A DNA stretch of 26,183 nucleotides from Nitrospinota bacterium (GTDB lineage: Bacteria; JADFOP01), in assembly GCA_022562795.1 (NCBI GenBank), contig JADFOP010000032.1:1-26183 (forward strand), written 5' to 3'. Positions 4,471 to 26,084 of the stretch are shown here, in pieces; positions within the stretch are counted from its first letter, which is position 1; the number at the start of each line of letters is the position of its first letter. A model generated the notes under the pieces. The model was not told the origin of the DNA. It searched no databases and saw nothing but the letters and a program-made list of their open reading frames with translations. Position numbers and translations under genes: made by a program.

Positions 4471-5349
4471 ATGACAACCCCAAAGGTTCTAGTAACCGGC
4501 GCGGGGGGAAAAACGGCCTCTTACGTGGTCGAACAGCTCATCGAAGAGGGCTTTCCGGTGCGCGCCTTAGTTCGCCGCCTCGACGAAAGATCGGATCGCC
4601 TCACATCTCTGGGGGCCGAGGTGGTCGTGGGAGATTTCTTAGATATCGAATCGCTCCGGTCTGCCATGGCGGGTTTAAAACGCGCGTACTTCTGCTATCC
4701 ACCCGCGGACCGCCTGCTGGAAGCCACCACCAACTTTGCTATCGTGGCCAAGGAAGTTTCCCTGGAGGCGCTGGTCAACATGTCGCAGTTTGAAGTTCGC
4801 GATGCACATCCGAGCCATCTTGCGAACCAGCACTGGCTGGGGGAGAGAGTGCTGGAGTGGGCTGACGTAGGCGTAACACATATACGCCCCACATTTTTCG
4901 CCGAAATGTCTCTGATACTGAACGGAAAGACCATCGCCTCCGAAGGGAAAATGTATCTACCCTACGGCGACGGAAAACACGCTCCGGTATCGGCCGAAGA
5001 CATCGCGCGCGTGGTGGTCGGTGTGCTAACGAACCCCGGACCGCACACCGGCGAGATATATAAAGTGACGGGGCCGGAGGATTTGTCGATCGCAGAGATC
5101 GCGGAGATATTCAACACGGCCCTCGGCAAGCCGGTTGAATACGTGGACATACCCTTAGAGGTTTGGCAGAAGGCCTTGGCTGACTTGGGCCTCTCTCCCT
5201 TTTTAATCCAACACCTGGGCCACATGGCAGAGGACCATAAAAACGGGTTTTTTGCCGGAGTGACGGATGTGGTGCATAAGGTTGGAGGCCGGCAACCTCA
5301 GTCCCTCGAGGACTTTATTCGCGCGAACGCCCAAGCCTTCGGGGCGTAG
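4471..5349 (+). CDS. NmrA-like NAD(P)-binding protein (atypical SDR family)
   Basis: This 292-residue protein is an atypical short-chain dehydrogenase of the NmrA type. It opens with a Rossmann strand and glycine loop (VLVTGAGGKTASYVVEQL), then the ALVRR stretch expected to read the NADP phosphate, GAEVVVGDFLD, and NMSQF near residue 110. The C-terminal part (GEIYKVTGPEDLSIAEIAEIF, PVEYVDIPLEVW) is typical of quinone oxidoreductase or azoreductase-like NmrA proteins. The catalytic YxxxK of classical SDRs is not evident, so it may sense redox state or reduce quinones; the substrate is unknown. The ATG at 4471 has AAGGAG six nt upstream and is preferred over an upstream start. It is the first gene of the selenoprotein island, 48 nt before the glutaredoxin. 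Confidence 0.82.
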   Translation: MTTPKVLVTGAGGKTASYVVEQLIEEGFPVRALVRRLDERSDRLTSLGAEVVVGDFLDIESLRSAMAGLKRAYFCYPPADRLLEATTNFAIVAKEVSLEALVNMSQFEVRDAHPSHLANQHWLGERVLEWADVGVTHIRPTFFAEMSLILNGKTIASEGKMYLPYGDGKHAPVSAEDIARVVVGVLTNPGPHTGEIYKVTGPEDLSIAEIAEIFNTALGKPVEYVDIPLEVWQKALADLGLSPFLIQHLGHMAEDHKNGFFAGVTDVVHKVGGRQPQSLEDFIRANAQAFGA

Positions 5350-5397
5350 AAGTAGCAACAAATTTGATGGAGTAACCTCGCGTGAGAGGAGGGAGCA

Positions 5398-5652
5398 ATG
5401 GAGAAAGTAACGGTCTATTCTACCCCCACCTGACCCCACTGCACCACGGCGAAAGAGTTCCTTTCGCAAAAGGGGGTCGCCTTTACTGAGCATGATGTCA
5501 GTCAGGATCGAGAGGCCCTTGAGGAGATGGTCAAGATATCCGGAGCGCTCAGCGTTCCAGTAATCGTCGTCTGTGAAGAGGTGATGGTAGGGTTCGACCG
5601 ATCCCGCCTCGAACAGGCCCTGACTTGTATGGAGCAACGGTCCGAGGTATAG
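5398..5652 (+). CDS. Selenocysteine-containing glutaredoxin-like protein (UGA codon 12 = Sec)
   Basis: The frame from the ATG at 5398, preceded by AGGAGGGAGCA, is interrupted once, by TGA at 5431-5433, and otherwise stays open to TAG at 5650-5652. Read through, it gives 84 residues with a clear glutaredoxin fold: VTVYSTPT, then U12-P-H-C15, a helix [11 protein letters not shown], the EHDVSQD strand turn, a cis-proline motif SVPVIVV (P54) and [11 protein letters not shown]. The TGA is exactly where the nucleophilic Cys of the CPxC motif belongs, giving UxxC. It resembles the small glutaredoxin-like (seleno)protein group that NCBI calls the Uxx-star family. A strong hairpin follows the TGA. A Cys-to-stop mutation or sequencing error is the alternative. 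It makes poor sense because the downstream frame, its motifs and the hairpin are all preserved. It likely reduces disulfides or peroxides with thiol partners. Confidence 0.9.
5431..5478 (+). promoter_or_regulatory. Bacterial SECIS-like element for the glutaredoxin UGA
   Basis: The UGA lies at the base of a two-part stem. GACCCC (5432-5437) pairs with GGGGTC (5473-5478), and after an internal loop GCGAAAG (5449-5455) pairs perfectly with CTTTCGC (5461-5467). The apical loop is AGTTC (5456-5460), 22 nt past the UGA. Bacterial SECIS elements recognised by SelB have this position and an exposed GU in the loop. Confidence 0.8.
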
Positions 5653-5761
5653 ACATGACGCGGAGCATCCCGGCCCTGTCACCTCAATGGCGTGGTTCTT
5701 ATTAGGAATTTGTCGCGAAAGAAAACCCAGAGATGGCATTGTCCGGAGGGAGGAGATTAAT

Positions 5762-6724
5762 ATGCGTTGGATAGTAACATTGCTTGGAGCCACACTGATG
5801 GTCGCTCTGATGGCGCCGCCAGCAGCGGGACGCATGAGACGAAATCCGACGATGCACAAATCAGTGAAAGTGGACGGGTTGGACATCTTCTACCGCGAGG
5901 CGGGTCCGAAGGACGCTCCAACCATTCTGCTGTTGCACGGTTTTCCCACGTCGTCGCACATGTTTCGTAACCTTATCCCCGCACTTTCCGACCGATTCCA
6001 CATAGTCGCACCAGACTACCCTGGCTTTGGGAATAGTTCCATGCCATCGCCAGACAAGTTCAACTACACATTCGATCAATTGGCTGAAGTGATCGAGAAG
6101 TTTATTGCAGCGGTTGGACTGAAAAAATATAGCCTTTACGTCATGGACTACGGTGCACCGGTGGGCTTCCGCATCGCGGCGAAACACCCAAATCAGGTGC
6201 AGGCGCTGATCGTGCAGAATGGCAACGCGTATGAAGAAGGCCTGCTCGAGTTCTGGGATCCATTTAAGATATACTGGAAAGAGCGAACCGAGGCTAATGC
6301 CAAGCCTCTCCGCGAATTTTTTGAGATTGGTGCAACAAAGTGGCAGTATACGCACGGCGTGCGGAACGTCGAGGCAATCAGCCCTGACAACTGGACGGTC
6401 GATCAATCGCTGCTTGATCGTCCTGGAAACAAGGAAATCCAGCTCCAGTTATTCTATGACTACGGTTCCAACCCCCCACTCTATCCTCAGTGGCAGGCCT
6501 ATTTTCGTAAATACCAGCCGCCGACGCTCGTAGTTTGGGGAAAGAACGACTTTATATTCCCGGCGGAAGGTGCTCACCCGTATCTTAAGGACCTCAAGAA
6601 CATTGAGTTCCATTTGCTAAACACAGGTCACTTCGCGCTGGAAGAAGACGGCGACTTGATTGCCACACTGATTCGCCGATTCATGAAAAGATTTGTAGTG
6701 TCTGGAACGAGTGGAACACAATAG
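5762..6724 (+). CDS. Exported alpha/beta hydrolase with Asp nucleophile (epoxide hydrolase/haloalkane dehalogenase-like)
   Basis: This 320-residue alpha/beta hydrolase carries a signal peptide (residues 1-23, ending PPAAG). HGFP at 59-62 forms the oxyanion side. At the nucleophile elbow VMDYGAPVG, Asp129 replaces the usual Ser, as in epoxide hydrolases, haloalkane dehalogenases and related enzymes. Asp263 (GKNDFIFP) and His290 (NTGHFALEE) complete a plausible triad. The ATG at 5762 follows GGAGGGAGGAGA and yields the signal peptide; a longer in-frame start at 5687 lacks this support. It lies 109 nt after the selenoglutaredoxin in the same direction. Base composition is lower in GC than the flanking housekeeping genes, hinting at acquisition by transfer. 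The substrate cannot be read from sequence. Confidence 0.85.
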
Positions 6725-7514: not shown

Positions 7515-7991
7515 ATGCGTTTGGAGAACAACCAGCAGTTTCCAACGGTAGTCGCTCGGCGAGTGGGAGACGGTGAGATCACAATCCCCGATGATCTGGC
7601 TGAGAGCTGGGGTGTGTTGCTCTTCTACCGGGGAGATTGGTGACATTACTGCAATCAGCAGTTAGCTGACTTTCAAACGAACATCGAGCGGTTAAGCGAG
7701 ATCGGTACCCGGGTGGTTGCGCTGTCCGTAGACTCGGAAGAGGACGCCCAAAAGACCGTGGACCGCAACGCGCTCGCATTCCCGGTCCTGTATGGGCTAG
7801 ACGCTCCGACGATGGCTTCGATGATCGGCGCTTACATCAACGAGGAGCCGCTCTACCTCCATGCCACCGGCTTCATCCTGCAGCCGAACGGGACCATCGC
7901 CTTGGCCGTCTACTCCAGCGGTCCGATCGGCCGCATCGTGTCCGATGACGCCATCGGAATTATTCGGCACTATCAGAAGCACGGCTACTAG
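7515..7991 (+). CDS. Selenocysteine-containing peroxiredoxin-like protein (UGA codon 43 = Sec)
   Basis: From the ATG at 7515, with AGGAG at 7501-7505 inside the end of the MOSC gene, one TGA at 7641-7643 interrupts an otherwise open 158-codon frame ending TAG at 7989-7991. The protein is an AhpC/TSA thioredoxin-fold member: LLFYRGDW before U43-H-Y-C46, then NQQLADFQTNIERL, RVVALSVDSEEDAQKTV, FPVLYGLD and TGFILQPNGTIALAVYSSGPIGRI. Relatives carry YRGxWCPYC, so the UGA replaces the first, reactive Cys. Without readthrough, gene callers would report only a fragment from about 7713. A short hairpin with loop AGTTA follows the UGA. The likely role is peroxide or disulfide reduction with Sec as nucleophile and Cys46 resolving. 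A plain nonsense mutation is possible but unlikely, given a second selenoprotein 2 kb away. Confidence 0.88.
7641..7669 (+). promoter_or_regulatory. Bacterial SECIS-like element for the peroxiredoxin UGA
   Basis: After the UGA, TCAGC (7655-7659) pairs with GCTGA (7665-7669) around the loop AGTTA (7660-7664), which starts 16 nt past the codon. The loop again exposes a GU, as in the glutaredoxin element. The stem is only 5 bp, and a competing hairpin (CTGC with GCAG, 7649-7661) exists, so support is moderate. Confidence 0.55.
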
Positions 7992-8687: not shown

Positions 8688-9806
8688 CTACGGCCTTTGG
8701 GCCAGCAGGGCTATTACTAGGCGGTGAAAGCGCCGAAGGACCTCCCAGCGGCCCTCGCCTCCTGCTTCCCCTGCGTGCGGGTCGACGTGGGCGAACAGCG
8801 GCAGGATGGAGACCGTCGGCTCGGCGCCAGCGGGGAGGGCGGCCGCCAGCCGGAGGGTCTCGGTGTGAGGGATGACGGGGTCGGGTCTTCCGTGGGCCAG
8901 AAAGAGCTTCATGGTCAGGCGCTCGGCGTAGTATCGAGGCGAGAGCGCCCGTCGGAGTCGGGCCACGACAGGACCCGCCCGCTCAAGGAGCGCCTCCACC
9001 CGCTCGGGGTCCTCGGTCGTAATAATCTCAAGTATGGCCCGGCCGCCGGGCGAAAGGCGGCCAGCCAGGATCTTCATCCTCTCGGCCCGCTCCATCGGGG
9101 GAACGGCGGCCACGCGAAGGAGGAGGGCCCGGTCTTTAGGGTCGGCCGCGATGTGACCGTTTGCGGCGAAGAACGCCCACCGGTCGGTCGTGACCAGCTC
9201 GCCTTCCAAGGACCGTCCCGCCTCCACAAGGCCTTTGACGAGCGCTGATAGGTCGTAGTAGCCCCCGAAGGCGCCGGCGAATGCGACCGTTGAGTGGAGC
9301 CGGGCGGCGGCGGCCAGGGCTGGGCCCCCACCGACGGAGATCCCCACCACCCCGACCCGTTCGGGGTCGACCGCCTCGACCATAGAGTGGATGTAGGAAA
9401 CCACGGCGGCCACGACGTCGATGTCCTCTTCGACGAGCGCTCCCCGCTTCAGGCCAGGGACCGCTGGGACGAGGACGGTGAAGCCGCCTGCCGAGAGTGT
9501 GGCGGCGAGGCGTCGCAATCGCCAATCCTCCTCGCCGGTTGCGACCATCCCATGGACGAGCACCACGCCGGAGCCGGGCGAGGCGTCCCGTGGCCGGACG
9601 AGGAGGGCCCTGGTCGCGCCATGGGGGTGAGGGATAGAGAGCGCCGAGACCTCGGGGCTCCAGCCGAGCCATGGCGTAACCGGCCGGGAGGCAGGCCTAA
9701 CGATGTCGTGCACCATAGCCCAGCCCAAAAGCCACGTACTCCGGAGCGCCGAGACGACCACGAGGACGCCTATCACCGCCGCGATAAGAAGCACAGTGCG
9801 CCGCAT
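8688..9806 (-). CDS. Membrane-anchored alpha/beta hydrolase
   Basis: This 372-residue protein begins with one hydrophobic segment (residues ~4-20) that should anchor it in the inner membrane or act as an uncleaved signal. The alpha/beta hydrolase core shows VVLVHGMVATGEEDW at 81-95, a nucleophile elbow VVGISVGGG with Ser157, a candidate Asp309 in AHGRPDPVIP and His340 in LFAHVDP. The order and spacing fit a catalytic Ser-Asp-His triad, as in dienelactone-hydrolase or prolyl-oligopeptidase-like esterases. It is transcribed toward the O-methyltransferase gene, so the two are convergent with only 18 nt between stops. No substrate can be named. Confidence 0.85.
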   Translation of the reverse strand: MRRTVLLIAAVIGVLVVVSALRSTWLLGWAMVHDIVRPASRPVTPWLGWSPEVSALSIPHPHGATRALLVRPRDASPGSGVVLVHGMVATGEEDWRLRRLAATLSAGGFTVLVPAVPGLKRGALVEEDIDVVAAVVSYIHSMVEAVDPERVGVVGISVGGGPALAAAARLHSTVAFAGAFGGYYDLSALVKGLVEAGRSLEGELVTTDRWAFFAANGHIAADPKDRALLLRVAAVPPMERAERMKILAGRLSPGGRAILEIITTEDPERVEALLERAGPVVARLRRALSPRYYAERLTMKLFLAHGRPDPVIPHTETLRLAAALPAGAEPTVSILPLFAHVDPHAGEAGGEGRWEVLRRFHRLVIALLAQRP

Positions 9807-9940
9807 GGGTCTAATTCCTCTTCAGCGCCGTAGGATTTCTCGGCAGTCCTTCCCGCCACCTGCTTAGGGTTTGACACAACCACTACGGCGGATTACGATG
9901 ATACCAGAGAGGCGGCGCTCTCCGTAACGAGAAACGGACC

Positions 9941-23584: not shown

Positions 23585-26084
<2,500 letters not shown>

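Follow-up and report, generated by a model that had tools for sequence, protein, structure and literature searches.

A glutaredoxin gene with an in-frame UGA at its catalytic position in a Nitrospinota bacterium is very probably a selenoprotein gene

Does a TGA codon that cuts a short reading frame at a catalytic position mark a broken gene, or is it read as selenocysteine (Sec)? The question is raised by positions 5398 to 5652 of the window, that is, the whole stretch of 26,183 nucleotides of Nitrospinota bacterium DNA analyzed here, for which an earlier note, made from the sequence alone, had proposed an unannotated selenoprotein, a glutaredoxin with UGA at the catalytic Cys.

Results

We examined the readthrough frame on the forward strand. 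It runs from an ATG at 5398 to a TAG stop at 5650-5652 and encodes 84 residues when TGA is translated as Sec (U). The frame contains a single TGA, codon 12 (5431-5433), which supplies the first residue of a UPHC motif, exactly where the earlier note had placed it in a CPHC motif. The complete glutaredoxin with cis-proline described around this codon was also recovered; the profile matches span the TGA, and the codons for the predicted resolving Cys15 (5440-5442) and for cis-Pro54 (5557-5559) are invariant in 37 relatives; the product further carries GFD at residues 65 to 67. The good ribosome site that had been claimed is a Shine-Dalgarno-like AGGAGGG (5387-5393), located 4 nt upstream of the ATG in a leader that is also kept in a genome of the same genus.

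The readthrough protein matched the Pfam Glutaredoxin profile (3.4e-19) and NCBIfam TIGR02196, the YruB family (92.8 bits against a cutoff of 88.55 bits, 1.4e-26), a family whose name is silent on Sec. Both matches extend across the TGA and thus the frame is not a chance one. The listing of open reading frames (at least 60 aa, standard code) held none in this frame, and plain ORF calling yields an antisense ORF of 227 aa (5203-5886) that overlaps the gene. The claim that standard gene calling finds no gene here holds for plain ORF calling; it does not hold for the NCBI model NF041212 (Uxx-star glutaredoxin-like (seleno)protein), which the readthrough protein passed with 74.4 bits against a curated cutoff of 66 bits. 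Scores against Uxx-star families 1, 2, and 3 (NF041114, NF041211, and NF047338) were 54.2, 49.4, and 47.3 bits, below the respective cutoffs of 72, 100, and 97 bits, and the cutoff of the HUGP fusion subfamily was likewise not reached.

An AlphaFold model of the 84-aa protein (mean pLDDT, 89.5) showed a glutaredoxin fold, and its top matches in the PDB were glutaredoxins. Sequence and model together display the [U/C]xxC active site, the cis-Pro, and the thioredoxin-like fold of this class of proteins. Classical glutaredoxins typically have a GGCDD-type glutathione site, which the GFD region of the window protein does not resemble. The best PDB match by sequence, which is also among the best by structure, was cGrx1 of Clostridium (Alkaliphilus) oremlandii (PDB 7c10, 7c12, and 7c13). 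The two proteins share fold and size, are 49 to 51% identical, and have the VPVI, VVGFDR, and KEFLS motifs in common as well as UPHC, which reads CPHC in the crystallized cGrx1 variant. The window protein differs from cGrx1 in having two extra cysteines (C59 and C77) and in ending with a CMEQRSEV tail. The native form of cGrx1 contains Sec, and the enzyme has been proposed as the reductant of the selenoprotein cMsrA (PMC7642778).

The gene recurs, TGA included, at 94% DNA identity in a genome of the same genus deposited as Nitrospinae bacterium AH_259_B05_G02_I21, this comparison being with one genome, assembled independently. The codon changes between the two copies comprise 8 synonymous and 4 replacement changes, with no frameshift. 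Further relatives were collected from bacteria and archaea by a genome scan for a pattern in the GFD region, and since this region lies far from the UGA, the choice of relatives was not biased toward it. The scan returned 69 loci, and the motif was readable in 67. At the position of codon 12, 49 of these carry TGA and 18 carry Cys, the outcome that an alignment had been expected to give for a selenoprotein family, and a Cys follows three residues later in every readable relative. The relatives with TGA are spread over several phyla. On plasmids and viral contigs, only distant relatives were detected.

In a tree of 37 of the collected rows, Sec and Cys forms are intermixed, with at least seven label changes, four of which are forced by well-supported branches. 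The window glutaredoxin falls into a supported group of seven. Three of these are Cys forms from deltaproteobacteria, and the other four have Sec, namely the window protein, its counterpart from the same genus, and those of a Methylomirabilota bacterium and an uncultured bacterium. The nearest relatives, Sec and Cys forms alike, have one or two additional cysteines (near C59 and C77) and end in a tail resembling xCxxQxS, and both traits are absent from the rest of the family.

Folding predicted a stem-loop at 5432-5478 (minimum free energy of about -21 kcal/mol, z of about -2.1), in which a lower stem, GACCCC/GGGGUC, encloses an apical hairpin, GCGAAAG[AGUUC]CUUUCGC, at 5449-5467. Relatives do not retain the lower stem. 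The apical hairpin spans 18 to 36 nt from the UGA (18 nt being counted from its first base). The bacterial SECIS model limits the loop to 3 to 9 nt, the upper stem to 4 to 16 bp, the spacing to 16 to 37, and the minimum free energy to at most -7.5, and places a G within the first two loop positions (PMC13188914). With a loop of 5 nt that begins 22 nt after the UGA, a stem of 7 bp, and a G at loop position 2, the window hairpin lies within every one of these limits. An Rfam search of the window gave no match at gathering scores.

To assess constraint on this hairpin, we compared Sec and Cys relatives. Across 41 distinct Sec relatives, which as related sequences are not independent and among which Rokubacteria are over-represented, 93.7% of cells were paired and 23 cells carried compensatory changes on both sides; none of 500 shuffles paired as highly, and sliding the partner by 1 to 3 columns lowered pairing to 39 to 70%. 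The 18 Cys relatives, by contrast, showed 52.4% pairing, with no excess over shuffles. Moreover, the hairpin includes Leu codon 22, for which 47 of 49 Sec genes use CTT, although CTT accounts for only 15 of 197 Leu codons in the remainder of these genes. Despite the kinship of the sampled sequences, the contrast with Cys forms agrees with the codon signal, and together they indicate that the hairpin downstream of the UGA is under selection in Sec forms.

The source genome is a draft of 2.15 Mb in 84 contigs and is 97% complete. Here the search for Sec machinery that the earlier note had recommended succeeded in part. A tRNA-Sec (77.6 bits, TCA anticodon) is present, and so is selD (C27:1-672), which is cut by the contig end and itself carries an in-frame UGA in GGGUACK; the draft yielded neither selA nor selB. 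The joint lack of selB and tRNA-Sec, which had been named as grounds for rejecting the selenoprotein, therefore applies to selB in the draft and not to tRNA-Sec. The same-genus genome has selA and selB together, with no selD found, and a same-class genome has all three genes. Their occurrence in these relatives makes an assembly gap in our draft likely, and incomplete drafts are the simplest reading of the missing genes, likely but unproven. A synteny search did not locate the gap: scpA adjoins selA in the same-genus genome, and its counterpart here (C34:1805) adjoins other genes. The genome also holds another Uxx-star gene with TGA (C46:14615-14839) and a Cys version (C1:18626-18847).

A second selenoprotein gene lies about 2 kb from the first on the same strand, at 7515-7991. 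It encodes a peroxiredoxin-like (AhpC/TSA) protein of 158 aa with a UHYC motif, whose in-frame UGA is codon 43 (7641-7643), and the Pfam AhpC-TSA match (71.9 bits) runs across this TGA. Its orthologue in the same-genus genome shares this TGA (motif UPFC) and is identical at 113 of 158 residues; the changes number 22, 21, and 55 by codon position and thus fall mainly on the third. A candidate SECIS hairpin, UCAGC[AGUUA]GCUGA, is located at 7655-7669. The UCAGC/GCUGA stem recurs unchanged, with an AGUU loop, in the same-genus genome and forms part of the minimum free energy fold there, but this pairing is suboptimal in the window. The same-genus glutaredoxin and peroxiredoxin-like genes reside on separate contigs (C199 and C333), so conserved linkage is not shown.

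The window matches the same-genus contig only at 5361-5653 (9638-9929 there), between unrelated flanks, and for this reason the neighborhood of the glutaredoxin gene yields no functional link. Within this match, the two genus members share 94% identity over the gene and its 37-bp leader, compared with mostly 77 to 85% for other shared DNA. Since the surroundings have changed, strong constraint alone is insufficient to account for such identity between unrelated flanks, and horizontal transfer or relocation of the single gene appears likely from these alignments. Elsewhere in the window, an ORF at 24427-25989 on the forward strand combines a DprA (DNA_processg_A) match with a following IstB-like ATP-binding domain, an unusual combination and maybe a fusion.

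Discussion

Homology, the TGA shared within the genus, the 49 TGA and 18 Cys relatives, the SECIS hairpin, tRNA-Sec, selD, and the other UGA genes all support the selenoprotein reading with which we started. We are highly confident that a functional selenoprotein gene resides here, its UGA codon 12 predicted to be read as Sec via tRNA-Sec, SelB, and the SECIS at 5449-5467, and that its product is a Uxx-star/YruB oxidoreductase near cGrx1. Sequence evidence directly establishes the reading frame, conservation of its UGA, the constraint on the SECIS, and the presence of tRNA-Sec and SelD. The gene is a real selenoprotein gene, well supported as such, and belongs to a family that is already known rather than new.

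The alternative that fares best, though very improbable, is that selA and selB were lost recently and that the glutaredoxin gene is a decaying relic, as their absence from a 97%-complete assembly would allow. It is opposed by tRNA-Sec, a UGA-bearing selD, and two further UGA genes, all intact as far as they are readable, and by the mainly third-position changes in the neighboring peroxiredoxin-like gene. Moreover, the other genus member lacks selD yet has selA and selB, as expected of fragmentary drafts.

Slightly less credible still is a pseudogene, in which the TGA would be a genuine stop that arose by mutation in a glutaredoxin once carrying Cys. The Cys paralogue on C1 might make such a loss tolerable, and the unfound selA and selB fit with it, but conservation of the UGA contradicts this reading: the codon recurs in the other genome of the genus and among readable relatives from several phyla (49 of 67), in a gene with no other stop or frameshift, with mostly synonymous changes, and with a SECIS hairpin under selection.

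A sequencing or assembly error that masks a true TGC or TGT is more remote again, given that the identical TGA appears in the same-genus genome, which was assembled independently, and that the window gene possesses a SECIS hairpin which Cys relatives lack. Reassignment of UGA to a standard amino acid, which the occurrence of several genes with in-frame TGA might bring to mind, can be dismissed almost entirely, because 6 of the 17 long ORFs in the window terminate at TGA, the in-frame TGAs coincide with catalytic Cys positions, and tRNA-Sec is present.

With the selenoprotein gene as the preferred reading, we infer both the insertion of Sec and the subsequent chemistry, with its substrate and reductant, as follows. 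tRNA-Sec and SelB would decode UGA codon 12 under the direction of the SECIS hairpin. Sec12 would then attack a disulfide or an oxidized residue of the substrate, Cys15 would resolve the mixed bond as a selenenylsulfide, and a cellular reductant would reduce the latter. By homology, the most likely assignment is Sec12 as the attacking and Cys15 as the resolving residue in a thiol-disulfide exchange. It is also tempting to suggest, by analogy to cGrx1 and MsrA, that the glutaredoxin may serve as the reductant of the peroxiredoxin-like protein.

More doubtful, although possible, is that the window protein, the Nitrospinae-labelled same-genus relative, the Methylomirabilota bacterium, and some deltaproteobacteria make up a distinct Uxx-star subfamily, which would be marked by two extra conserved cysteines (at about C59 and C77) and a conserved tail, would switch between Sec and Cys, would move as a single gene with its SECIS, and possibly would partner the Sec peroxiredoxin-like protein.

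What is known of the Uxx-star family is unchanged by the window gene. The finding does indicate very probable use of selenocysteine in a poorly sampled lineage related to the Nitrospinae, and at least two redox genes on this single contig would escape plain gene callers. It also offers a clear comparative view of how a SECIS hairpin constrains codon choice, the KEFLS codons being almost invariant in Sec genes but unconstrained in Cys genes.
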